Shown here piece after piece: positions 16,139 through 56,830 of a DNA stretch of 56,830 nucleotides. This DNA comes from a virus. The first letter of the stretch is position 1. Every line of letters starts with the position of its first letter. The notes beneath the pieces were generated by a model, which saw only the letters and a program-made list of their open reading frames with translations, did no database searches and was not told where the DNA came from. The stretch lies in IMG/VR virus record IMGVR_UViG_3300025327_000035, positions 1 through 56,830 of that record. The stretch is one strand, 5' to 3'. The translations under genes and the position numbers were made by a program.

Positions 16139-16284
16139 AGCATCGAGGCGCAGAAAACGAACCGGCCACGGGATCGCTATGCGTTGCCTGCGCCGATGAG
16201 AGCGATCGCGTGGTCCGGGTGCTCGGGTTGTCAGGTCCGCCGACAGAACAATTGTGCCACATGTGGCGGATTGTGTCAATGTGA
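16135..16284 (+). CDS. possible 49-residue Cys-containing ORF
   Basis: ATG overlaps the TGA of the previous gene (ATGA), which supports coupled translation. The peptide contains CVAC and a later Cys-His, with a short hydrophobic stretch (VVRVLGLSG). Its last part overlaps the operator-like repeats at 16252-16296. Too short for a firm call. Confidence 0.3.
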   Translation: MKHRGAENEPATGSLCVACADESDRVVRVLGLSGPPTEQLCHMWRIVSM

Positions 16285-16296
16285 CAAATTGTGTCA
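16252..16296. promoter_or_regulatory. operator-like triple repeat TTGTGYCA
   Basis: TTGTGCCA at 16252, TTGTGTCA at 16271 and TTGTGTCA at 16289 are spaced 19 and 18 bases apart. The first is part of a perfect palindrome GCCACATGTGGC (16256-16267). The second is part of a dyad TTGTnnCAnTGnnACAA (16271-16287). The spacing of about two helical turns suggests cooperative repressor binding before the early operon. Confidence 0.5.
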
Positions 16297-16388
16297 CTCA
16301 TCTGTAACGCGGTTTTTACGCATTTCTCACGATTTGGTAGTCTCTTTTCTAACCACTTCGCGGTATCTCATTGCAGGTAGCAACGGAT

Positions 16389-19666: not shown

Positions 19667-20106
19667 AGGCAAGCAGCATCTTGACCATCTGCGCCGGGGG
19701 CGGATTCCGTTCCCGGATCATGGCCGTGCTGCTCGCGCAGCGAACGGGCCTGCGCACGGCCTACGCCGGCACGACGACGGACTGGCAGGGGCGTGTGAAC
19801 CCGCACGCCACGGCGGTCTTGGAGCATGCCGGCATCTATGATCGTCCGCTCATCTCTCACCAGGTTCGGGCCGATGAGATCACCGCCGCCGGCATCGTGA
19901 TCTGCGCCGAGCGCCGGCATCGCGAGCAGTTGTGTGAGATGTATCCCGAGGCAGCGGAGAAGATGTTCACATTGGCGGAATTGGCCGGCGTCGAGGACGT
20001 CGCCGATCCGACGCCGATCGCGCACCTGGGGCACCAGCTGACGCTCGACGAGCTGATGCCGACGTATCAGGAGATTCGTGCGGCAGTGGAGCGGATTGCG
20101 CTATGA
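19663..20106 (+). CDS. low-molecular-weight protein-tyrosine-phosphatase-like protein
   Basis: 147 residues, ATGA overlap with the HTH gene. The N-terminus has a strand then the P-loop C(x)5R(S): Cys10, Arg16 in ILTICAGGGFRSRIMAVLLA, matching the CTGNICRS loop of LMW phosphatases and arsenate reductases. Later, the segment AGIVICAERRHREQLCEMYP matches the family strand and helix, and the DPTP motif (near residue 115) corresponds to the loop with the general-acid Asp. It likely hydrolyses phosphate from protein, nucleotide or sugar phosphoesters. Length is normal. Its host target is unknown. Confidence 0.7.
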   Translation: MKASSILTICAGGGFRSRIMAVLLAQRTGLRTAYAGTTTDWQGRVNPHATAVLEHAGIYDRPLISHQVRADEITAAGIVICAERRHREQLCEMYPEAAEKMFTLAELAGVEDVADPTPIAHLGHQLTLDELMPTYQEIRAAVERIAL

Positions 20107-21137
20107 ACTTCCACGAAGTATCAAACTTATTCCCATTGATGTCGGACGAAGAGCTAGACGAGCTTGCAGACGACATCCAGGAAAATGGCCTCAAGGAGGC
20201 TATCTGTATTCACGACGGCAAGATCATTGATGGCCGCAATCGGTACCTGGCGTGCGAGCGCGCAGGCGTGGAGCCGCACTATCAGGAATGGGATGGCCAA
20301 GGCTCGCTGGTGTCGTTCGTCGTTTCGCTGAACCTCAAACGGCGCCATTTGAGTGAGAGCCAGCGCGCAATGGTCGCGGGGAAGTTGGCGAATATGCGTT
20401 CGGGTTCACGGACCGATCTTGTGAGAAATGGTGCGGAACCTCCCGCCAATTGGCGGGAGGTTAGTCAGACCGAAGCTGCAACCTTGCTTAATGTCGGCGA
20501 GCGCAGCGTGCAGCGCGCCAAGACGGTCATCGATCGCGGTGTACCCGAGCTTCAACAGGCCGTCGAGCACGGAGAGGTGTCTGTATTAGCCGCGTCCGAA
20601 ATCGCCCGCGCGCCACAGGAGAAGCAGCGCGAGCGCCTCAACGTGCACTTCTCAAGCAGCAGCGATGACCATAATACGCCGAGACATATACTCGACATGG
20701 TGATGGCTGTGATGGGCGAGATCGACCTCGACCCATGCAGCAACAGCAAGGAATCACCGAACGTCCCGGCCAAATACCATTACACAAAAAGCGACGATGG
20801 ATTAAGCAAAAAGTGGTTTGGCCGGGTCTATATGAATCCCCCTTACGGCGATGAAATCCCGAAATGGGTAGGCAAGCTGGTCGATACCTTCGAGTCAGGT
20901 GAAGTCAAGGAGGCCATCGCATTACTCCCGGCCAGGACGGACACCGCCTGGTTTAACCAGGTATGCAGCTACACTATTTGTTTTGTGCGAGGCCGGCTCA
21001 AATTCGGAGATGCGAATAACTCGGCCCCGTTCCCGTCCGCAGTTGTCTACCTCGGCTCTCGCTCGAAGCGCTTCATAAAAGCCTTTTCTGAGATTGGGCC
21101 GGTATTCCAAAGGGTCGATCGAGATGTACAAATTTGA
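20103..21137 (+). CDS. ParB-like nuclease domain fused to Dam-type DNA adenine methylase
   Basis: 344 residues. Residues 1-100 are a ParB/Srx-like domain (ENGLKEAICIHDGKIIDGRN, then RYLACERAGV and NLKRRHLSESQRA). An HTH-like linker follows (VSQTEAATLLNVGERSVQRAK). Residues 190-340 match the phage N6-adenine methylase family: NTPRHILDM, IDLDPCSN, YHYTKSDDGLSKKW, then motif IV NPPYG. The protein would methylate adenine in specific sites, perhaps to shield phage DNA from host restriction. ParB-methylase fusions are known in phages. Overlaps the phosphatase gene by 4 bases. Confidence 0.8.
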   Translation: MNFHEVSNLFPLMSDEELDELADDIQENGLKEAICIHDGKIIDGRNRYLACERAGVEPHYQEWDGQGSLVSFVVSLNLKRRHLSESQRAMVAGKLANMRSGSRTDLVRNGAEPPANWREVSQTEAATLLNVGERSVQRAKTVIDRGVPELQQAVEHGEVSVLAASEIARAPQEKQRERLNVHFSSSSDDHNTPRHILDMVMAVMGEIDLDPCSNSKESPNVPAKYHYTKSDDGLSKKWFGRVYMNPPYGDEIPKWVGKLVDTFESGEVKEAIALLPARTDTAWFNQVCSYTICFVRGRLKFGDANNSAPFPSAVVYLGSRSKRFIKAFSEIGPVFQRVDRDVQI

Positions 21138-23000: not shown

Positions 23001-23143
23001 ACGCGCCGCCGCGCTTCGGCCACTACCCTGATAGCCCCCTCCGCCAAGAGCCGGGCTGATCAAGGCACCCTAACAACCGAGTAGCGCTTGCACGACATCC
23101 CCATGCGTAGGGGATGGTGTGCCCCATTTGGCCGACGGCCTCA

Positions 23144-23188
23144 GCAGGGGCTTATGAGTCCCCTGCTCTGCCACTGAGCTACGCCGCC
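23144..23188 (-). other. tRNA-Met(CAT)-like 5' half, candidate attP core
   Basis: Read on the - strand, 23188-23144 starts GGCGGCGTA, then a perfect D arm (GCTC-AGTGGCA-GAGC), then an anticodon arm with CTCATAA loop (anticodon CAT). The expected T arm and 3' acceptor strand (CGCCGCC) are absent after it. It is therefore half of a tRNA, not a gene. A - strand TATAAT (23225-23220) lies upstream. Such partial tRNA identity is typical of att sites. Confidence 0.45.
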
Positions 23189-23705: not shown

Positions 23706-24647
23706 ATGGATCGAGCCACGTCCCCCAACGTGGCCCGCTCCCCCAAGGTGGTGCAGTTGCTGACATACCTGCACCCCCAGTATACACCCGTCTGTCAAGA
23801 CAGGCAATGGGGGTCAATGATGAGTGTCAAGGCAATGACTGCCGTATTCGATGCGCGCAGACTGACTCCAACCGAAAAGCTAGTGCTCTTGGCGCTGGCC
23901 GATCATGCCTCCGAGGATGGATTGAATATCTATCCGAGTGTGGAGACTGTGTGTAAGAAGACCGCATTAGGAGACCGCACAGTAAGGCGCACCATCAAGT
24001 CGCTGAGAAGCGAAAAGAGAGGCATCCTGTTTCTGGTCAGGCGAAAAGGGCGACTGCAAAATGAATACGGCATGAATCTGGCGAAGTTGCAAGACCTGCC
24101 AGACGATCCACTGAGACCTGCCACTGTGGCAGGTCAAGACCTGTCAGACGATCCACTGAGACCTGCCACTGTGGCAGGTAAATCATCAGTAGAATCGTCA
24201 GATCATCCATCAGGAAATCTTAACGCTGCTACGCCGCGTAACGCTCGCCCGCAAGACCTGCACTTTGAAGCTCTCTCGGATGTCTCAAACCTGACACCGC
24301 CCGGGCGGGACTGGAAGCAGCTCACGCGGACCGCCGCCGGCCAGCTCAACCGCTACGCCAAAGAGCTGAGAGACGCCGGCGCGACACCGGAACAGATCGC
24401 GGCCTTTGGGCCGTGGTGGTACGCAAACGATTGGCGCGGCCAGAAGCGACAGCCGCCGAAGCCGGCGGACGTAGCCAGAGAGTGGCCGCGCTACAGGAAC
24501 GGAGATCGAACGAATGGAACACATCAGCAAAGCACTGGCCCGTTTGCAGGACTCGATCCCGCCGAGCGCGAACGGCTCCAGGCGCTCGCCGACAAGATCA
24601 ACGCTCGACGAGCGGCGAAGCGCGCAGCGCAGCGCGGCGCTGCGTGA
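23706..24647 (+). CDS. replication initiator-like protein (lambda O-like, wHTH)
   Basis: 313 residues from 23706, but the conserved part begins with MSVKAMTAVF, so ATG 23817 or 23820 (preceded by GGGGG) is a likely start. Residues 45-130 are a winged HTH (RLTPTEKLVLLALADHASED, CKKTALGDRTVRRTIKSL) as in phage initiators. A linker encoded by two 45-base repeats follows (QDLPDDPLRPATVAG twice). The C-terminal part is helical (RYAKELRDAGATPEQIAAFG). A DnaC-like loader gene overlaps its 3' end by 134 bases, as in lambda O-P order. It probably binds the repeats in its own gene to start replication. Confidence 0.65.
   Translation: MDRATSPNVARSPKVVQLLTYLHPQYTPVCQDRQWGSMMSVKAMTAVFDARRLTPTEKLVLLALADHASEDGLNIYPSVETVCKKTALGDRTVRRTIKSLRSEKRGILFLVRRKGRLQNEYGMNLAKLQDLPDDPLRPATVAGQDLSDDPLRPATVAGKSSVESSDHPSGNLNAATPRNARPQDLHFEALSDVSNLTPPGRDWKQLTRTAAGQLNRYAKELRDAGATPEQIAAFGPWWYANDWRGQKRQPPKPADVAREWPRYRNGDRTNGTHQQSTGPFAGLDPAERERLQALADKINARRAAKRAAQRGAA
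23792..23803. promoter_or_regulatory. small inverted repeat before the probable initiator start
   Basis: CTGTC-AA-GACAG lies 13 bases before the ATG at 23817. It could be a binding site for autoregulation. Short, so weak evidence. Confidence 0.25.
24090..24179. repeat. two 45-bp tandem repeats with 19-bp palindromes, candidate replication origin
   Basis: Units 24090-24134 and 24135-24179 differ at one base. Each ends in ACCTGCCACTGTGGCAGGT, a perfect 9-bp inverted repeat around one base. Extra half-sites (GACCTGCC, GACCTGTC) begin each unit. A stretch richer in A and T follows (24180-24232). This mimics the iterons and AT-rich part of lambda ori, which also lie inside the initiator gene. Confidence 0.65.
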
Positions 24648-25368
24648 GTACGCCGAGCTGCTGGGATCGACGCCCGGCATCGAGCGTTGTCCGAAGTGTG
24701 ACGGCTCCGGCGTCGTGGTCGATCCGCTTGGCTTCGGGCATTCGTGCCCGGAGTGTGAGCCTCGTCGGCAGGCCGAGCGGATGCAGGTGATGTCGGGCCT
24801 GAACGCCGACGAGCGCGCTGTTCGGCTCGACGACGTCGACTTCACCGGCGGCGGCACGGATGGACTGATCGTCGCGGCGCGGACGTTCCTGGTGCGGCCC
24901 GCCGGCATCCTGACACTGTGGGGCGGTCCGGGCAACGCCAAGACAATGGTGCTGCAGGCCATCGTCGGCGAGTGCCTGGCGCGCAGCGTGCCGGCGGTGT
25001 ACACGACATTCTACGATCTCGCGGGTTACGTGCGCGAGGCGTTCCGGGACGACAGCGAATCGGCCTGGCGGCGCATGCAGCGATTCCAGTCGGTGCGCGT
25101 GCTGTGCATTGACGAGCTGGACAAGGTGAAGGATACAAGTTGGTTGCGCGAGCTCGAGACAGCGATCATCGACAAGCGCTACCGCGATGGCCTGGCTGGT
25201 CTGACTGGAACGGTGATCGCCATGAATGAATCACCTGACTCATTGCCGGAGTGGATCAAGAGCCGGCTGCGGGATGGGCGCAATCGGATCGTGCACAATT
25301 CCGATCCGGATGTGCGGACGGCGATGTCGGATGAGAGCGGTCCGAGCGCGCGGCCGGCGGGGTTGTGA
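24514..25368 (+). CDS. DnaC-like helicase loader ATPase
   Basis: 284 residues. Residues 59-81 form a zinc-binding knuckle pair (CPKC and CPEC). Walker A is GGPGNAKT (137-144), Walker B is VLCIDELD (196-203), followed by sensor and arginine-finger regions (TGTVIAMNESPDSLP, SRLRDGRNRIV). These are hallmarks of DnaC/DnaI-type AAA+ loaders that place replicative helicase on the origin. The N-terminal zinc part resembles DnaI. It overlaps the initiator gene by 134 bases. Confidence 0.8.
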   Translation: MEHISKALARLQDSIPPSANGSRRSPTRSTLDERRSAQRSAALREYAELLGSTPGIERCPKCDGSGVVVDPLGFGHSCPECEPRRQAERMQVMSGLNADERAVRLDDVDFTGGGTDGLIVAARTFLVRPAGILTLWGGPGNAKTMVLQAIVGECLARSVPAVYTTFYDLAGYVREAFRDDSESAWRRMQRFQSVRVLCIDELDKVKDTSWLRELETAIIDKRYRDGLAGLTGTVIAMNESPDSLPEWIKSRLRDGRNRIVHNSDPDVRTAMSDESGPSARPAGL

Positions 25369-27198: not shown

Positions 27199-28025
27199 GA
27201 CGATGTTTGATTCTCGTCTTGCTGGGCTTGGCATTCATTGTGCCAGCGGCTCATGCGCAGGATCCAAGCCCGACGCTCGACCCAGTTGCCCAGGCCGAGG
27301 CATTGCAGGCCCAGGCCGATCGCGCGCTGTCCGAGGCGCAGGCCGCGGCCGGCCAGGCGTCTTCGTTGCGCGCCCAGGCAGCGCAGGCGGACGCGCGCGC
27401 GGCCCAGGCGCGTTCCGCTGCGCAATTGGCGCTGGCCGAAGCCGAGCGCTTGCGCCTCGTCGGCGCGCTGAGCGAAGCCCAGGCAGCCATCGAGCAAGCG
27501 CGACTGGCCGAGCAGCAGGCCGCGCAGATCGAGGTCGAGGCTGCTCAGGCCCGGGCGCTGTACGACGAGGCTTACATGCGCGCGCTTGGCGCGATCGCCA
27601 ATGCCGAAGAGGCAATGAAGAGCGCCGGGATCTCCGTGGCAAACGTCGAAGCGCTTCGCGCTCAACTTGCCGCGATGCAGAGCGATCTGCGTGTGGCCGA
27701 AGAGCGATCGCGCATCCTGGCAATCGCCGGCGCCGGCCTGTTCGCGCTGGTGGCACTCAGCGCGCTCGCGGCATTGCAGATCATGCGCCATCAGCGTCGA
27801 ATGATCATCGGAAGCGTCGACGTCGCCGTGCGGTCGCTGTCCCGCGAGCGGGCGCAGGTCACGGAGATGCTTATGCACATGCTGGCCAGCATCGGCGGCA
27901 AAGACGGAGAGACGATCATCGATCACGGCGCGCCGGCGCTCGACGGGGACGATCTATTCATCCGGCGCTACGCCGATGCGCCGGAGCACATCGTCGAAGG
28001 CTTGAAAGATTTATTCCATGACTAA
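27195..28025 (+). CDS. exported coiled-coil membrane protein
   Basis: 276 residues. Signal peptide MRRCLILVLLGLAFIVPAAHA with a cleavage site after AHA. A long Ala/Gln-rich coiled coil (25-170) follows, then a membrane helix (ILAIAGAGLFALVALSALAAL, about 174-195), and a cytosolic C-terminus ending DLFHD. The layout mirrors the lipoprotein at 26018. Overlaps the FtsK-like gene by 8 bases, so the membrane protein and the ATPase are coupled, as for an anchor and motor. Confidence 0.65.
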   Translation: MRRCLILVLLGLAFIVPAAHAQDPSPTLDPVAQAEALQAQADRALSEAQAAAGQASSLRAQAAQADARAAQARSAAQLALAEAERLRLVGALSEAQAAIEQARLAEQQAAQIEVEAAQARALYDEAYMRALGAIANAEEAMKSAGISVANVEALRAQLAAMQSDLRVAEERSRILAIAGAGLFALVALSALAALQIMRHQRRMIIGSVDVAVRSLSRERAQVTEMLMHMLASIGGKDGETIIDHGAPALDGDDLFIRRYADAPEHIVEGLKDLFHD

Positions 28026-29565
28026 CACCGCATTGGCGGTTATATCCGACGCGGACATCTTCAAGGCCGCCAGCCGGCTTGCTCGTGGCCTGGAGAGCCA
28101 TCCCTCGCTGCGCCACGATAACGGCGACGGCTCGATCTTTCGCGTGACGATTATGCAGGATGTCACGCTGATCGCCAATCGCTATCTGCTCGTGCCGGTC
28201 GACCTGAATCGCCTGTGGCACTTCGACAAGAGCCGTCTGCGCCGGCCCCGACTGCTGGAGCACCTGGAGATCGAGGTTGGAATGCCTGTCAGGTATATCG
28301 CATCCGATCGGGGCTTCTTCTATGTACTCGAGTGGAACTCCGGGCGCGGGAATGGCGCGCCGGCCCGGGCCATAGCGCTGCCGGGGATGGTGGCACTGCC
28401 GTCTGTCGAGCGCGATCGGTTCGCGCTGGGCGTTGCCGATCACGGGCCGCTGCTTGCCGAGCGCCGCGAGCTGCGTGGTGTGGTCGTCGGCGGCGGGCCT
28501 CGCACGGGCAAGACGAGCCTGCTGCGCTCGCTGGCTTACCAGGCTGTGAGCAATGGCTGGATATTGTATCTGGCAGATAAGCCGCTCGGAAACACGTTCA
28601 TGCCGGCGCTGTGGTCGCGTGTGCCGAGCGTCGCAGGCATTGCCACGAATGGATCTGAAATCGATGAGCTGCTCACGGACATTGACGATCAGTGCAGCCG
28701 GCGCGCTGCGCTGTTCGCTGAGGCGGCGCGCAATTACATTCCACCCGAAGACCTGGAGCAGTTCAACGAATGGACCGGCTCGCGCTTGCCGCCGATCCTG
28801 TTCGCGGCTGACGAGTTCAATACGTTCAGCCACTACATCTCGATGGAGCGGTTCGCCGACATCGCGCGCCGCAATCAGAAATACGGGTTGATGATTGTCA
28901 TCGCTGCGCACGAGTGGAAGAGCGACGCCATCAGCAAGTCGCTTTCCGAACTTCTGGAGACGCGCATCTGCTTCCACATGGCGAGCCGTGAGGCAATCCG
29001 CGCGGTGATGCCGTTTGTCAGCCCGGCGCAGGTGGCACAGCTCGGCCGTATCGCCGAGCAGGGCAGGGTGGCGATCAATCTGATGGGTCATCACTCGCTG
29101 ATGCAGGCTTACTATCTCGATCCGGAGCGGCTGTCGGCGATGGCCGTGAGCCAGGCCGTCGAGAAGCCGCGTGTGACGCTCACAACGAATGAGCAGGAGA
29201 TCGCCCGCGCGGCGATCGAGGAACTGGACGGTTACTTCTCCATTGAAAAGCTGGCCGCGCTCGGCATCAGCCGGCGCCAGATTGTCAAAGCGTCGAAGGC
29301 GTGGGCAGACCGGGGCTGGCTTGGACCGGTGACGGACAGGGGACGAGCTTTGACAGATCGCTTCGCCGATGATACCGGCCTGGAGCAGGGTAGGCCCCAA
29401 GAGGCCCCAGGGCGATCAGACCGATCAGACGATCAGGGCGATCAGACCGATCAGGCCCCCGAAACATTGGGCTTTGCCGGCAGAGCGACGGAGCGCGACA
29501 TCGCGTTCGCGGAGGGTCTGATCGCCCGCAGAGGGGGTCTGAACGCCGGTCTGACCGGGGTCTGA
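28018..29565 (+). CDS. FtsK/TraB-like DNA-translocating ATPase
   Basis: 515 residues. Walker A GGGPRTGKTS (158-167), Walker B ILFAADEF (260-267), and a later glutamine/arginine region (RRNQKYGLMIVIAAHEW) match the FtsK-SpoIIIE superfamily. Residues about 395-455 look like a winged helix (IEELDGYFSIEKLAALGISR, KAWADRGWLG), as in the DNA-reading gamma domain of FtsK and in TraB. The C-terminal 60 residues are encoded by a repeat array at 29413-29581. No membrane helix is present; the upstream exported protein may anchor it. It would pump double-stranded DNA. Confidence 0.75.
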   Translation: MTNTALAVISDADIFKAASRLARGLESHPSLRHDNGDGSIFRVTIMQDVTLIANRYLLVPVDLNRLWHFDKSRLRRPRLLEHLEIEVGMPVRYIASDRGFFYVLEWNSGRGNGAPARAIALPGMVALPSVERDRFALGVADHGPLLAERRELRGVVVGGGPRTGKTSLLRSLAYQAVSNGWILYLADKPLGNTFMPALWSRVPSVAGIATNGSEIDELLTDIDDQCSRRAALFAEAARNYIPPEDLEQFNEWTGSRLPPILFAADEFNTFSHYISMERFADIARRNQKYGLMIVIAAHEWKSDAISKSLSELLETRICFHMASREAIRAVMPFVSPAQVAQLGRIAEQGRVAINLMGHHSLMQAYYLDPERLSAMAVSQAVEKPRVTLTTNEQEIARAAIEELDGYFSIEKLAALGISRRQIVKASKAWADRGWLGPVTDRGRALTDRFADDTGLEQGRPQEAPGRSDRSDDQGDQTDQAPETLGFAGRATERDIAFAEGLIARRGGLNAGLTGV

Positions 29566-29581
29566 CCGCCCCGATCAGACC
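29413..29581. repeat. ten short repeats CGATCAGACC at the FtsK-like gene 3' end
   Basis: Direct copies start at 29413, 29422, 29430, 29439 and 29448 (period 8-9, overlapping). Inverted copies GGTCTGAYCG or GGTCTGAACG start at 29515, 29536, 29548 and 29559, and a final direct copy lies at 29572-29581. The copies run over the stop codon at 29563-29565 into non-coding DNA, so they are conserved as DNA rather than as protein. Confidence 0.75.
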
Positions 29582-29593
29582 AGGGGATTACAC

Positions 29594-34190: not shown

Positions 34191-35132
34191 CTACTCTTTC
34201 TCCGGCGGCAGCCACGACACCTCATTATGCCGCCGGTGTATCTCTTCCTCATAGTAGATCGCATAAAACGTCAACGTCGTCCTGACATCCTCGTGACCGA
34301 GGATCTCCTGCAGCTCGCGCGGATTCGCGCCGCGCTGGATGGCGCCGCGTGCGAAGCCGTGCCGGAAGGCGTGCGGATTGAATCGGCCCGTCACGCCAGC
34401 GCGACGCGCCAGGCGCTTGAGCACCTGGTAGATGCCGCCGGTCGTCAGCGGTCTGCCATGCACGCCGACGAAGATGAGCGGCCCGGCGTCAGTCGGCCGC
34501 TCCTCGTCGATGTAGCGCCGCAGCGCATTCGCGGCGCGCTCGGGCAGATGCACGCGCCTGGCCTTGTCGCCTTTCTCGCGCACGAGGATAACACGCGCGT
34601 CGAGGTCGACGTCGTCCACCCGCAGGCCGGCCAGGCCGCCGGCGCGGATCGCCGTGCCGGCAAGCACACAGACGATGGCGTAGTCGCGCAGCCCCCGCTT
34701 GCTTCCAGCGGGGGGCTGCGCCGCATCGAGCAGGCGCAGCAGGTCGTCGAAGCGCAGGTCTCGCGGCGGCATTTTCGGAAGCTTCGGTCGCTTGAGGCGG
34801 TGCGCGGGATTGGCGGTGATGACCCGCTCCTCGACGAGCCAGTTGAAAAAGCGCTTCCAGGCGCGCACATGCTTGTGGAGCGTGTAAACGGAGAGGCCGC
34901 CGGACTGCGCCGGGCGCGAGGGATGATCGGCGTAGCGCGTCGTGCGGTCGCGGAGTTGGGCGTAGACCAGGCGCAGATCGTCTATCGTGACCTCGCCGAC
35001 GGGCTTGTCAATTGCGCGCAGCGGGCGCAGGCACTTCTCGTAATCGGCGACAGTAGCGGGCTTCACCTCCAGGCCGACGGCAAACAGGAATCGGTCGATG
35101 GCCTGCGAGATGTGAAGAGTGTCGGCCGGCAT
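34191..35132 (-). CDS. int: tyrosine recombinase integrase
   Basis: 313 residues. Residues 1-125 are a SAM-like core-binding domain (YEKCLRPLRAIDKPVGEVTI and VRAWKRFFNWLVEERVIT). The catalytic domain has the expected residues: Arg in TAIRAGGLAGLR, Lys in EKGDKARRVHLP, HAFRH (His and Arg), His in ILGHEDVRTTLTFY, then a Tyr in the following segment. It should integrate the phage into the host chromosome at an att site, so the phage is probably temperate. It is the only core gene on the - strand. Its attachment site is not obvious beside it; a tRNA-half-like element lies at 23144. Confidence 0.9.
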   Translation of the reverse strand: MPADTLHISQAIDRFLFAVGLEVKPATVADYEKCLRPLRAIDKPVGEVTIDDLRLVYAQLRDRTTRYADHPSRPAQSGGLSVYTLHKHVRAWKRFFNWLVEERVITANPAHRLKRPKLPKMPPRDLRFDDLLRLLDAAQPPAGSKRGLRDYAIVCVLAGTAIRAGGLAGLRVDDVDLDARVILVREKGDKARRVHLPERAANALRRYIDEERPTDAGPLIFVGVHGRPLTTGGIYQVLKRLARRAGVTGRFNPHAFRHGFARGAIQRGANPRELQEILGHEDVRTTLTFYAIYYEEEIHRRHNEVSWLPPEKE

Positions 35133-49671: not shown

Positions 49672-49858
49672 TGTAGATTATGAGATAGCACACGCGGCCT
49701 GGCCCTCGCTCGTCATCATGACGAGTGCCCCTACGGGAGTCTGGGTTTGGCATGGAGACTTGGGCTATGGTGTCTCAGCACCGAACCTTAACAACTGTAG
49801 CACGAAGGTAGCGGAAGATGACTGCCCCTGTCGTCCGCGCCACGGCCACGCCGCATAA
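49658..49858 (+). CDS. possible small ORF between virion genes
   Basis: Frame open from TTG 49658 to 49858 (66 residues) with aromatic segment GVWVWHGDLGYGV and Cys residues at the end. It overlaps both neighbours and has no good ribosome site. It fills the 146-base gap 49672-49817; it may be non-coding. Confidence 0.2.
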   Translation: MIRHDVDYEIAHAAWPSLVIMTSAPTGVWVWHGDLGYGVSAPNLNNCSTKVAEDDCPCRPRHGHAA

Positions 49859-51962
49859 GTTCACGGCTACCGATACGGTCACCATCACGAAGCCATCTGG
49901 CACAGTGGATGGCGATCTGCTCGTATTCGTCCTGGAGTCGGCTGAGGCGGCGACGGATGTCAGCACCTGGCCGGACGGGAGCTGGGTTCCGGGCCATCGC
50001 ACAACAGGCAGTGGTCAATGCGGGCTGATCGGCTATAAATTGGTCGCTTCGAGCGAGCCGAGTTCGTGGACGTTCACGCTAAACGGGGCTCGCAACGGCA
50101 TTGCCACCGTAGTTGTTATAGATGGCTCTACGACAGCCAACACTCTGTCCGGCACTGAAGCCGGTCAGCAAACAGCCAATGGGACCTCGCACGCGACCCC
50201 CAATATCACGACGGATGTTGCCGATTGCCTGCTTCTGACGCACTACGGCTCGGACAGCGGTGGCTCACGCACTTGGACGCAGGGCAGCGACACGGAGTTG
50301 ATGGACGACGAGGAGACGAGCCTGTGGGTGAGCTTGGCGATCTTCTCCGCTGTCGCGGCGACCGCAGATACATATTCCAAGACCGGCACGTCGAGCGCGA
50401 ACTGCATAGGCGATACCGGTATCATGGCGATCCGTCCCGTGTCGGGGACACAGGTAAGCGACAACCAGACCGCGTATCTCAAGGGACGTGACACTGCCAG
50501 CGATAATCAGCCCGCCTATACAAAGGGACGGGATGTATCTAGCGACAACCAACCGGCTTATCTCCGGGGCCGAGCTGCTGCCAGCGATAATCAGTCCGCG
50601 TACCTCAAAGGCCGGGACGCGGCGAGTGACTCACAGCCCGCCTACCTGTTCGGCGTCGAGGCGGCAAGTGACAGTCAGACAGCTTATTTGCGAGGTGAGG
50701 CACCTGCCAGCGACAATCAGGCGGCATACACGCGGGGGCGCGATACTGCAAGCGACAACCAGATCGCTTATCTCAGGGGCCGCGACTCCGCAGTCGATAG
50801 CCAGCCCGCTTACGCGAGGGGCAAAGATACTGCTGTCGATAATCAGCACGCGTACGTCAACGGTCAGGCTGCTGCGAGTGACAATCAGACCGCTTATCTG
50901 AACGCAGTATCGGCAGGCACTCCGGCTAGTAGCGGGCAGATCGCATATCTAAGGGGGCAGGATACTGCCACTGACGGTCAACCTGCTTATCTCAGAGGGG
51001 TAGCCTCTGCCGAAGACTCGCAACTAGCCTACTTGTCAGGTGCAGCCTCAACAGCCGACAGCCAGGCTGCTTACCTGAGAAGTGAGGCCCAGGCGAGCGA
51101 TTCGCAATTATCGTATCTGGTTGGATCGGAAGTTGCAAGTGATAGCCAGCCTGCCTACCTCGAAGCCCAAGCGACAGCTAGCGACAATCAACCTGCCTAT
51201 CTGTCTGGGCCAGTCGAGGACGCGGGTGCGCTCGATGCGATTGATGGATCGCTGTTCTGGTCAACGACAGGTGCAGTCGAGGCAAGCGATGGCCAGCCCG
51301 CTTACCTGAGAGGGCAGGATACCGCCAGTGGCTCTCAAGCAGCTTACCTGAGTGGCCTGGCAGTCACCAGCGACGCGCAACCGGCCTATCTCAGCGGTTC
51401 AGACACGGCGACGGATTCGCAGCCCGCTCACCTGCGCGGGCAAGATGTAGCAGTAGGTTCTCAGCCGGCTTACCTATCCGGTGTAACGGGCGCAGTTGGA
51501 TCGCAGGTAGTCTATCTGCGAGGGGAAGATGCCGCCGCAGATTCGCAATCGGCCTATCTCGTTGGGAGTGATGTTGCATCTGATGCACAGATCGCGTATG
51601 CCCGTGGACAAGATGCAGCAACGAGCGCACAACCAGCCTATCTCGCTGGACGCGACACGGCGGTCGATTCGCAATCGGCGTACCTGCGAGGCTCAGCGGC
51701 AGCGAGCGACTCGCAGCCGGCCTATCTCTCTGGCGCGTCAGGCGGAACCGAGACCAGCGATAACCAGCCCGCTTATCTTGCTGGCACGGCGACGGCGGCT
51801 GATTCGCAACCCGCATATTTATGGAGTGGTCAGGCTGTAAGCGATTCACAATCTGCATACCTCAATGGCGTGCAACCTCTTGGCCGCTCGAGGGACTGGC
51901 GTCGTGTTAAGGCGCAGCGAAAACAGAAGGAAGAAGAAGAAATTATCATCATCGAATCCTAG
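49818..51962 (+). CDS. virion protein with 32 tandem 14-residue repeats
   Basis: 714 residues. Residues 1-211 form a beta-sandwich domain (DGDLLVFVLESAEAATD, WTFTLNGARNGIATVVVIDG, CLLLTHYGSDSG) similar to the 47908 product. Residues 213-686 are 32 units of consensus SDNQPAYLRGRDTA, with Asp2, Gln4, Ala6, Tyr7 and Gly9 most constant. Units 11 and 29 carry 3 extra residues and unit 18 carries about 20. The end is basic then acidic (KAQRKQKEEEEIIIIES). The regular repeat suggests a stacked fibre or solenoid on the virion that can lengthen or shorten by recombination. Confidence 0.75.
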   Translation: MTAPVVRATATPHKFTATDTVTITKPSGTVDGDLLVFVLESAEAATDVSTWPDGSWVPGHRTTGSGQCGLIGYKLVASSEPSSWTFTLNGARNGIATVVVIDGSTTANTLSGTEAGQQTANGTSHATPNITTDVADCLLLTHYGSDSGGSRTWTQGSDTELMDDEETSLWVSLAIFSAVAATADTYSKTGTSSANCIGDTGIMAIRPVSGTQVSDNQTAYLKGRDTASDNQPAYTKGRDVSSDNQPAYLRGRAAASDNQSAYLKGRDAASDSQPAYLFGVEAASDSQTAYLRGEAPASDNQAAYTRGRDTASDNQIAYLRGRDSAVDSQPAYARGKDTAVDNQHAYVNGQAAASDNQTAYLNAVSAGTPASSGQIAYLRGQDTATDGQPAYLRGVASAEDSQLAYLSGAASTADSQAAYLRSEAQASDSQLSYLVGSEVASDSQPAYLEAQATASDNQPAYLSGPVEDAGALDAIDGSLFWSTTGAVEASDGQPAYLRGQDTASGSQAAYLSGLAVTSDAQPAYLSGSDTATDSQPAHLRGQDVAVGSQPAYLSGVTGAVGSQVVYLRGEDAAADSQSAYLVGSDVASDAQIAYARGQDAATSAQPAYLAGRDTAVDSQSAYLRGSAAASDSQPAYLSGASGGTETSDNQPAYLAGTATAADSQPAYLWSGQAVSDSQSAYLNGVQPLGRSRDWRRVKAQRKQKEEEEIIIIES
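50454..51876 (+). repeat. 32-unit 42-bp coding tandem repeat
   Basis: Codons 213-686 of the gene at 49818. Units vary in DNA sequence more than in protein, so the array is old and under selection for the protein pattern. Period is 42 bases except for three insertions. Confidence 0.85.
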
Positions 51963-53578: not shown

Positions 53579-56404
53579 ATGCCTTACGAGATCAGAGAAG
53601 AGAACGGCAAATTCTGCCTCTACAAGGAGTCCGGCGGCGATTCGCTGGGATGCCACGAGTCGCGCGATGCGGCGATGGCACAGATGCGCGCCATTTACGC
53701 CAACGAGGCCACTCAAGAAAATCTCGTCCTGGCTGATAGCGATTTGAGCGCCGGCCGGCGCGTCTTCGAGTTGGATACCAGCGACCCCGGCTTCTTCACC
53801 AACTGCATGAGCGACGCCGAGATGGTGGAGCACTACGGGGACGAGGAACGCCGCGCCCGTGTGTGCGCCACGCTCCACAAGAAAATCACCGGCATCTCCC
53901 CCGTTGAGCACGAGAGCGTGAATCCGGCCATGGCTCAGGAATCCTTCACCGCCCAGCGCGTCACCCTCTCTGACATCCACTTCGGCGCGCCGGCTGACAA
54001 AACCGGCCGCTCGTGGGACGTCATCATTATCGGGCCTGAGAAGCCTGACGATGTAGTGACCGTGGATGGCACAACGTATGTCCGCTCGAAAAACGGCAGG
54101 CTCTGGTCGGCGACGGCACTCGAGGCCGCGGTCCCAATGTTCGAGGGCGCCAAGAGTTACGACGACCACCTGACTGACGCAGAATTCGCACAGCGCGGCG
54201 GCATGCGTCCGCCCGGGCGTGATTGGCTCGGCTCATTCGTCAATGTGCATTGGGACCGCGTCGCAAACAGCCTGCGCGCCGTGTTCAAGGTCGTCGACGA
54301 CGCCTTCGCACGCAAGCTCGTCCGTGCGCAAGAGGGCGACGTCCTCAACACGATCGGCCTGAGCATTGACGTGCTCCGCGACTTCGTTCGCCGGCGCATC
54401 GGTGAGTCGGTTGTGGAATTGGTTCACAAGATCACCCGCGTCATTTCGGTGGACGCGGTAGGCGATCCAGCAGCAGGCGGTCGATTCGTCCGTGCGCTGG
54501 AATCCATTCAACACGTGCAGCACGCACGGGAGGCAAACATGGAAGAGGTTCTCAATCAGGTCGAGCAATTGATCGCAGCGGTCGACGCCAGCATGCTGCC
54601 GGATGAAGCGAAGGCCAAGCTCAAGGCGCTACTGGAAGAGATTAAGGCGGGACTGGCCGCACCCCCTGAGGAGGGCATGCCAGCCGAGGAAATCCCACAG
54701 GCGCAAGAGGCGAAGATCGCGGCGGCGAAATATGCGCTCCGCACGATCGAGTCTGTGGTCAAGGCCGCTGGCGTGAAGCCGGCGCCGGTCTCTGCGCCAG
54801 CCATCCCGGGCCTGGCCGAAGTGCAGCGCATCCTCGACGAGGCCAAGCGCGCATCCGAGGCAGCCAAGCACGAAGCCGATCGCATCCTCGAGGCGGCCAA
54901 GATCGCCCAGGCGCAACAGACACTTGATGCGATGCTGGCCGGCTCGGGCCTGCCCGAGCCGATCCGCAAGCTGATCCACAAGCAGTATGCCGGCCGCGCC
55001 TTCGAGGCCACCGATCTCCAGGTGATCATCGAAGATCATCGCACCGCGCAGTTGGCAATCGACGAGAGCGGCCAGGGCCAGGTCACAGGTCACGGCGGCG
55101 CGCGTCCTCGCGTCAAGGTCGGCGTCAACGAGGCCGACCAGTTCACGCTCGGATTCGTGCGCCGGGTGTGGGGTCCGAACGGCCTGCGGAAGTTCCGCGA
55201 GGCGCTGGGCATGAAGTGGAAGGATGGCGCTCCAGTGATCGGCAACGGCCAGGACGCGGCGCAAGACCCATCCTTCGCGCTGGCCGTGCGCGCAATCGAG
55301 GGCTGGAAGGCCGGCGGCTTCTCGATGTCGTCCGTGCCACTCTACACCGGCCTCGACGAGTGGTACTGGGACCTGACCGGCGGCGGCGACCGCAACCAGG
55401 CCGATTTCTTCGGCGAAGGCCGGTTCAGCGCCCGGGCGCTGGAAGCGAATCTTAGCACCGGAACGCTCGCCTCGATCGTAAAAAACGCGGTCAACGTTTT
55501 ACTCGCGGCAGATTACGCTGTGCAAGAGCAGTGGTGGGCTGATCTCGTCGAGGAGATGGACGTCGACACCTACGATACGGCGACTCTTGTTCGCCTGTTC
55601 GGTGTGTCGGCGCTTTCCGTGGTCAATGAGGGTGCGGCCTATCCCGAGATCGATTGGGAAGACGAGGAGGAGACAGCCACGGGAGTCAAGCGCGGGAATA
55701 CCGTAGGGATTACACTCGAAACCTTCCTGCGCGACAAGATCAAGAAACTCCAAACCATGCCGGAGCGTCTCAGTAAATCCTGGTACAACACCATCGCCGA
55801 TCGCGTGGCGCAGGTGTTCACCACCAACAGCGCAGCCGGCCCGGTGCTGTCGGACTCTGGCGCGCTATTCAACGCGACGGCCGCGACCAGCGCGGGCGGC
55901 CATGCGAATCTGCTGACGGCGGCGCTGGCTTACGCCGCGCTCGACGCAGCGGTGACGGCGATGAAGAAACAAACCGATCAGCCGCTCGGCGCCGGTCGGC
56001 GACTCGGCGTGGAGAACTTCCCCATACATTTGCTGACCCCCATCGATCTCACCACAGCAGGAGAGAGAATCATCAACAGCGACAAGATCCCGGGCAGCGC
56101 CAACAATGACGACAACCCGTACTATAAGAAGATCAAGGTAACGGAGATCCCGGTATGGACAGATGCGACGGACTGGGCATTGCTCGCCAAGCCGGGCGGC
56201 GTCAGCCCGATCAAGCTCATTTGGCTGCGCGGCAAGCGCACGCCGGAGCTGTTCGAGGCGCGTACCGAAGAGGGCGGATTGCTTCTCACTAACGATACGA
56301 TTCTCTACAAGGTCCGCCAGTTCGGCTTCGAGTTCTCGTCTACGTATCGGGTGGCTCCGGTCGCCGACTGGCGCTCGATTCACAAGAGCAACGTGGCCGG
56401 GTAA
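53579..56404 (+). CDS. maturation protease - scaffold - major capsid polyprotein (Mu gpT-like)
   Basis: 941 residues. Residues 1-45 are a small domain (EENGKFCLYKESGGDSLGCH). Residues about 120-310 are a prohead protease: MFEGAKSYDDHLTDAEF (Asp-His), LGSFVNVHW, NTIGLSIDVL (GLSI), and ISVDAVGDPAAGGRFVRALE at its end. Residues 315-480 are an acidic, Ala/Glu-rich scaffold-like coiled coil. Residues about 500-941 resemble Mu-type major head proteins (VWTDATDWALLAKPGGVSPI, KLIWLRGKRTPELFEAR). Fusion implies self-cleavage during head maturation. The ribosome site is weak (CAGCAGGTAACAGTCT). Confidence 0.75.
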   Translation: MPYEIREENGKFCLYKESGGDSLGCHESRDAAMAQMRAIYANEATQENLVLADSDLSAGRRVFELDTSDPGFFTNCMSDAEMVEHYGDEERRARVCATLHKKITGISPVEHESVNPAMAQESFTAQRVTLSDIHFGAPADKTGRSWDVIIIGPEKPDDVVTVDGTTYVRSKNGRLWSATALEAAVPMFEGAKSYDDHLTDAEFAQRGGMRPPGRDWLGSFVNVHWDRVANSLRAVFKVVDDAFARKLVRAQEGDVLNTIGLSIDVLRDFVRRRIGESVVELVHKITRVISVDAVGDPAAGGRFVRALESIQHVQHAREANMEEVLNQVEQLIAAVDASMLPDEAKAKLKALLEEIKAGLAAPPEEGMPAEEIPQAQEAKIAAAKYALRTIESVVKAAGVKPAPVSAPAIPGLAEVQRILDEAKRASEAAKHEADRILEAAKIAQAQQTLDAMLAGSGLPEPIRKLIHKQYAGRAFEATDLQVIIEDHRTAQLAIDESGQGQVTGHGGARPRVKVGVNEADQFTLGFVRRVWGPNGLRKFREALGMKWKDGAPVIGNGQDAAQDPSFALAVRAIEGWKAGGFSMSSVPLYTGLDEWYWDLTGGGDRNQADFFGEGRFSARALEANLSTGTLASIVKNAVNVLLAADYAVQEQWWADLVEEMDVDTYDTATLVRLFGVSALSVVNEGAAYPEIDWEDEEETATGVKRGNTVGITLETFLRDKIKKLQTMPERLSKSWYNTIADRVAQVFTTNSAAGPVLSDSGALFNATAATSAGGHANLLTAALAYAALDAAVTAMKKQTDQPLGAGRRLGVENFPIHLLTPIDLTTAGERIINSDKIPGSANNDDNPYYKKIKVTEIPVWTDATDWALLAKPGGVSPIKLIWLRGKRTPELFEARTEEGGLLLTNDTILYKVRQFGFEFSSTYRVAPVADWRSIHKSNVAG

Positions 56405-56465: not shown

Positions 56466-56830
56466 ATGAACTTCGATCTCAGGGGCATCAAGGGCATTCT
56501 CGTCTCACTCGCCGCCGCAGTCGCGCTGGTGTTGTCCGTGCTGAATGCCGTGATCGGTGTTCTGCCGGGTGATGTCGAGACGCTCGGCACGACCAATTTC
56601 GACACGCTTCAGGTCGAGTCTGGCTCAGCATCTGCGCCATCGCTATCGTTCACCGACGACCCGGACGTTGGTCTCTTCAGGCGGGCGGCTAATACGCTGG
56701 GTCTGACCGTCGGCGGCTCAGAGGTCGTGAGTATTACGTCCAGCGGCCTCAACCTGGAAGGCGTCGCGTTCAACGGGCCAGTCGTCCTGTTTGGCGGCCT
56801 GGTATCCAACGCCGTAACGCTAGCGCATGG
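56466..56830 (+). CDS. virion protein, N-terminal part (continues at base 2)
   Basis: First part of the gene that crosses the circle junction; joined length about 181 residues. Begins MNFDLRGIKGILVSLAAAVA, with a membrane-like segment at residues 9-33, then a short spacer and PSLSFTDDPDVGLFRRA, a phage virion motif. GGAGAAAACAC precedes ATG 56466. Directly after the capsid gene, so likely head decoration, fibre or neck related. Confidence 0.7.
   Translation, partial: MNFDLRGIKGILVSLAAAVALVLSVLNAVIGVLPGDVETLGTTNFDTLQVESGSASAPSLSFTDDPDVGLFRRAANTLGLTVGGSEVVSITSSGLNLEGVAFNGPVVLFGGLVSNAVTLAH
56690..56830. repeat. terminal direct repeat, right copy
   Basis: Same 141 bases as 1-141 apart from A at 56816 (T at 127); the change is silent (GTA and GTT, both Val). 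Confidence 0.9.

Follow-up and report, generated by a model that had tools for sequence, protein, structure and literature searches.

A probable lambda-like replication origin within the initiator gene of an uncultured phage

Results

The initiator gene and its surroundings

The window, as we call the whole stretch of DNA that was analysed, is a virus sequence record of 56,830 bases that is classed as linear. Its first and last 141 bases (1-141 and 56690-56830) form a direct terminal repeat that agrees at 140 of 141 bases, the one mismatch falling at position 127. It is therefore likely that the record, though classed as linear, holds a whole genome whose ends are redundant. Terminase, portal and head genes are present together with an integrase on the minus strand (34191-35132), and the virus is therefore probably a temperate tailed phage.

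The initiator gene lies at 23820-24647 on the plus strand and encodes a protein of 275 residues. The open frame itself begins at 23706; we took as the start the ATG that aligns with the MSVKAM of its relatives. The protein matched HTH_36 (6.6e-13) and PHROG families 1032, 391, 270, 8540 and 678, which carry the names replication initiation or O-like. Its matches to phrog_391 and phrog_678 scored 4e-15 and 2.8e-13, and lambda O matches both of these families too.

A structure model built from 50 sequences (mean pLDDT 77.8) predicted a winged-helix DNA-binding domain at residues 1-91 (23820-24092, plus strand; block pLDDT values of 88-98 for residues 1-90), with helices at residues 41-48 and 52-63, the latter being the predicted recognition helix, and a beta wing at residues 70-85. 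Residues 101-140 have a pLDDT of about 50 and form a predicted disordered linker. A predicted helical C-terminal domain, modelled with moderate confidence, spans residues 147-226 (24258-24497, plus strand) and is a candidate contact for the helicase loader. Searching solved structures for the initiator with phmmer gave no match, and Foldseek gave none in the PDB at E <= 0.001, its best entries there being winged-helix proteins, some of them named Rep or initiator. In BFVD, 81 Foldseek matches passed E <= 0.001; most of these were phage helix-turn-helix proteins, and one, ranked 33rd, bore the name replication protein O.

The initiator gene is followed on the plus strand by a DnaC-like AAA+ helicase loader gene (24514-25368; AAA, 1.8e-5; phrog_50, DnaC-like helicase loader, 6.3e-23), just as the first-pass annotation of this DNA had proposed. 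If translation begins at its first ATG, the loader gene shares 134 bases with the initiator gene (24514-24647). Our scan of the larger ORFs turned up no phage helicase, primase or polymerase, and we found no relatives of the loader in viral contigs.

Several other features of the record deserve mention. A minus-strand stretch at 23129-23188 resembles a tRNA, with a CAT anticodon by eye; it reached 23.7 bits with the Rfam tRNA model, for which the gathering score is 29, and ARAGORN found no tRNA in the record. This stretch is perhaps a degraded tRNA or the remnant of an attachment site. The ORF at 20103-21137 combines an N-terminal ParB-like region and a Dam-type DNA methyltransferase in a single frame. 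Another, of 941 residues (53579-56404), matches head maturation protease and major head families in its C-terminal third and may be a fused head protein. Between genes, at 16244-16300, there are three short ATTGTGTCACATGTGACA-like palindromic repeats that could be an operator or other binding site. When we sought them in the contig that carries a related initiator (L002, described below), the sole match was 18 nt in unrelated sequence. We considered the repeats as a second origin and set this reading aside.

An array of four iterons lies in the predicted linker of the initiator

Codons 91-121 of the initiator gene hold a repeat array that sits behind the winged helix, mostly in the low-confidence linker before the C-terminal part. 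The earlier placement of the repeats in the linker of a winged-helix initiator was thus borne out, with the winged helix (1-91) upstream and low pLDDT over residues 101-140. The two 45-bp copies occupy 24090-24134 and 24135-24179 and differ at a single base (44 of 45 alike, 98%); each contains a perfect 9+1+9 palindrome, ACCTGCCAC-T-GTGGCAGGT (24116-24134 and 24161-24179). The heptamer AGACCTG starts at 24092, 24114, 24137 and 24159, with spacings of 22, 23 and 22 nt and in frames 2, 0, 2 and 0. The array, annotated at first as two 45-bp repeats, is therefore more aptly described as four iterons of 22-23 bp: the near identity of the copies and the palindrome in each of them hold, but the unit is shorter. 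An iteron pair measures 22 + 23 = 45 nt, or 15 codons, so that a pair can duplicate without a frame shift, and this is also why 45-bp units were perceived at first.

All four iterons lie on the plus strand. Iterons 1 (24092-24113) and 3 (24137-24158) have the left half-site only and lack the right arm. Iterons 2 (24114-24136) and 4 (24159-24179) carry the two palindromes, so that perfect dyad symmetry is found in two of the four. Reading the sequence revealed no adenine runs within the iterons.

We asked how often such an arrangement arises by chance. With up to three mismatches allowed, the palindrome has no other occurrence in the window, and shuffled sequences average 0.01 matches. When codons were shuffled with the protein preserved, 3 of 5000 trials contained two palindromes with arms of at least 9, and 10 of 5000 contained four copies of one 7-mer inside 90 nt that used more than one frame. 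In a generic scan for arrays, 3 of 200 shuffles equalled the window's own array, against 0 of 60 in a smaller scan. The FtsK/SpoIIIE-like ORF at 28018-29565 also passed the codon-shuffle repeat test when used as a control; tandem repeats lie near the end of this gene, at 29413-29586. Apart from the array, the only close direct-repeat family of at least 24 nt in the window is an in-frame 42-nt repeat at 50.5 kb, where tandem protein repeats of 14 residues occupy 50457-50876 within ORF 49818-51962. In other viral contigs, the exact palindrome was found at one locus (L003), as a single copy in unrelated sequence.

The array is bordered on its right by a stretch richer in A and T, as the first-pass annotation had it. 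A+T content is 0.60 over the 50 nt at 24180-24229 (plus strand), a candidate DNA unwinding element, compared with 0.394 on average in the window. The enrichment is modest; 0.60 is reached by 2.1% of all 50-mers in the window. Of all 45-mers in the gene, the one with the highest A+T content begins at 24179, where the array ends on its right. GC skew had been suggested as a further check. It is positive on both sides of 24.1 kb, with neither a minimum nor a switch there, and this test therefore lends an origin no support.

A related initiator conserves the DNA of the array more than its peptide

A 35,774-base contig, L002, encodes an initiator that is 65% identical to that of the window. It has four iterons in the same place, spaced by 31, 23 and 22 nt, in the same frame order of 2, 0, 2, 0. 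The L002 iteron is AGACCTGACACAGGATCAGGT-like; its iterons 1 and 3 align with iterons 1 and 3 of the window. The first L002 copy reads ACTTGA...TCAAGT and the last ACCTGA...TCAGGT, a paired change that preserves the dyad. The most A+T-rich 45-mer of L002 lies to the left of its array.

Comparing DNA and protein between relatives had been proposed as a means of finding conserved repeats beneath a changing peptide, and this is the pattern we obtained. Where the two proteins have the same amino acid, the codons are identical at 21 of 26 positions in the array and right flank versus 46 of 128 elsewhere (Fisher P = 5e-5), the codons of the right flank being among those conserved. Amino-acid identity, on the other hand, is 20/34 in the array, 73/89 in the winged helix and 63/92 in the C-terminal part. 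Because array codons are conserved while array amino acids change, the comparison gives what selection on the DNA, and not on the peptide, would produce in a linker that tolerates change.

Iteron arrays recur across O-like initiators

We collected relatives of the initiator from viral contigs, phages and plasmids, keeping 80 of 179 relatives in the larger search. A scan of genome contigs with an alignment of two sequences yielded 47 pattern matches, none of them a relative. The winged-helix family spans 88 phage records, with O-like or 'primosomal protein I' initiators of Pseudomonas, Vibrio and enteric phages. We first examined 22 genes; in 17 of them the array was unmatched by any of 60 codon shuffles. 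One of the 17 was lambda O (J02459), a positive control in which the four annotated iterons were recovered. At the same cut-off (0/60), arrays were present in 16 of 21 initiators without lambda, a partly redundant set, versus 4 of 68 neighbouring ORFs.

The full collection comprised 130 genes, from which 5 shorter than 130 residues were dropped and the rest grouped into 67 clusters at 60% identity. Calling an array when no more than 1 of 200 codon shuffles reached it, we found iteron arrays in 51 of the 67 clusters, a cut-off that differs from the 0/60 applied to the 68 control ORFs; the other 16 gave no array by this cut. The window's own cluster, at 3/200, falls outside the 51. At least three iteron copies are present in 46 of the 51 arrays, mixed reading frames occur in 43, and the first iteron lies at codon 76-120 in 49. 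The spacing is 22 or 23 nt in 62 of 132 cases, and many others are near 33 or 44.

The DNA sequences of the iterons vary among the 51 arrays, and the A+T-rich flank lies on the same side. Mean A+T is 0.567 in the right flank, 0.475 in the left flank and 0.451 over the gene (n=51). At third codon positions the values are 0.635, 0.400 and 0.406 (n=51), so the excess on the right is not simply due to the amino acids of the linker. Dyad symmetry reached p < 0.05 in 11 of 19 arrays tested singly; lambda itself gave p 0.21, and the test is therefore conservative or the symmetry imperfect.

We also looked at the gene directly after the initiator in 20 cases, namely the window, L002 and 18 small-gap cases out of 38. 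It belonged to the DnaC-like loader family in 7 and was DnaB-like helicase in 2. Pairing of the initiator with a replication gene thus recurs, though it is not universal.

The recognition helix covaries with the iteron

We compared the iterons with the helix predicted to read them, using the 51 arrays plus those of the window and L002, both placed by hand (n=53). Similarity over residues 50-63 correlated with iteron similarity (Mantel r = 0.36, p = 0.0005), and the correlation persisted in a partial test that controlled for GC content and for the whole rest of the domain (r = 0.31, p = 0.0005), with the reservation that Mantel tests remove shared ancestry only in part. Other regions of the domain gave r of about 0.11 or less. 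In these sequence comparisons, the covariation links the repeats with the protein whose gene contains them. Iterons carried GAC/GTC in 23 of 27 arrays with Arg at residue 57 and in 9 of 26 without it, in an exploratory search whose motifs and residue were picked after viewing the covariation list. Arg57 ranked first for GACA/TGTC and GAC/GTC, not for GCAG/CTGC.

Discussion

Taken together, these results make it very probable that the segment from 24090 to about 24230 is the replication origin of the phage, lying inside the initiator gene and working like lambda ori. Its support is computational: the anatomy of the array, conservation of DNA over peptide, the layout seen across the class and the covariation of helix and iteron. 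Dimer binding, strand opening, helicase loading and a replication start at the array we infer by analogy. In this reading the initiator, probably dimeric, would use its N-terminal winged helix to bind the four iterons in the DNA of its own linker, and the assembled complex would strain and open the A+T-rich stretch on the right. The C-terminal part may then recruit the DnaC-like loader made from the next gene; the loader would put a host DnaB-type helicase on the opened strand, and the host replisome would copy the phage circle.

Could the array be an operator instead, through which the initiator represses its own transcription and that of the loader while replication starts elsewhere? Palindromes for a winged helix do resemble operators, the covariation of helix and iteron fits any binding role, and the intergenic palindromic repeats at 16.2 kb could be another such site. 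However, an origin better accounts for the mid-gene place behind the DNA-binding domain in most clusters (codon 76-120, 49/51), for the common 22-23 nt pitch and for the one-sided A+T-rich flank, and the 16.2-kb repeats have nothing in the L002 contig except the unrelated 18-nt match. We consider an operator improbable. More improbable still is a neutral or protein-level repeat, for which 45 bp would have been duplicated recently in a linker under no constraint and the copy retained or tolerated as peptide. Such an event would suit copies that agree at 44 of 45 bases, a length that is a multiple of 3 and a linker predicted to be disordered, but the 22/23-nt sub-repeat alternates between two frames and therefore encodes different peptides, L002 keeps the DNA rather than the peptide, and neighbouring ORFs seldom show arrays (4/68).

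The array might also act as RNA, as a hairpin in the initiator mRNA serving as an attenuator or in translation control, and RNA from the window does fold unusually well (z -4.6). The L002 array does not (z -1.4, with 16 of 200 shuffles as good), and a strong fold in one but not the other is therefore evidence against an RNA role. No terminator-like site was found at the array, and its Rfam matches are mostly to microRNA families and far below gathering scores, which is what a bare inverted repeat would produce. Of the readings weighed here, we give this one the least credence.

Accounts of the lambda and Stx-phage origins describe four iterons at a pitch of about 20-24 nt in the initiator gene, with dyad symmetry and adenine runs (bent DNA), an A+T-rich region to their right and the loader gene next (PMC7466680, PMC6022878). 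The array of our phage shows most of the testable features that define an origin of the lambda type: four iterons inside an O-like initiator gene that shares PHROG families 391 and 678 with lambda O, an A+T-rich right side and an adjoining loader gene. It differs in that the iteron sequence is unrelated, only two of four iterons are palindromic and adenine runs, a trait we do not treat as defining the class, are lacking. The loader is also different, being AAA+ and DnaC-like; lambda P is not known to be of this type. The first-pass annotation had likewise seen the lambda arrangement with unrelated sequences. The layout, the O-like families and the loader uphold this view, as does the lack of relation to the lambda iterons, but the sequences do not stand alone: the core of the L002 iteron, TGACACAGGATCA, is also present in the iterons of a distant initiator, L098, so iterons of this type are not isolated.

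Phage SPP1 offers a likeness of layout. According to the part of the SPP1 literature cited here, oriL lies in gene 38, where direct repeats and an A+T-rich unwinding element are found in the gene of the origin-binding protein, and the phage has a helicase loader, gp39, its own DnaB-type helicase, gp40, and a second origin, oriR (PMC6316719). Repeats and an A+T-rich element within such a gene, and a helicase loader, are common to both phages; oriR and gp40 set SPP1 apart, as we found no phage helicase among the ORFs scanned. In the winged-helix family of our initiator, most of the O-like or 'primosomal protein I' initiators examined have arrays at the same place, examples being those of Riah (L045), mEp021 (L046), vB_Pae_BR141b (L049) and PseuP_224 (L050). 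They differ in iteron sequence (GCAG..CTGC types, for instance), and PseuP_224 has a DnaB-type helicase annotated downstream. A limited search of open-licence PMC full text, which is not proof of absence, turned up no survey of intragenic iterons across the O-like initiator family. The arrangement of an origin within its initiator is already known; of more interest are how broad the class is and that helix and iteron covary.

For a temperate phage that has not been cultured, these findings point to one specific origin that can be put to the test. They also show the arrangement of lambda, commonly described as a trait of lambdoid phages, in divergent phages from the environment whose iterons are quite different. 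Since the DNA-binding domain and its target sites occupy adjoining codons, they could move jointly by recombination, and they form a natural data set for learning the DNA specificity of winged helices. A broader reading, which we hold tentatively and with somewhat less than even confidence, is that O-like initiators across tailed phages are one large class of self-contained cassettes, each with its own origin and a near-fixed pitch of 22-23 bp, in which the iteron follows from the recognition helix through a code that can be read, Arg57 with GAC/GTC being one example. If so, origins would be predictable from protein sequence, and binding domain and sites would move between phages as one piece.
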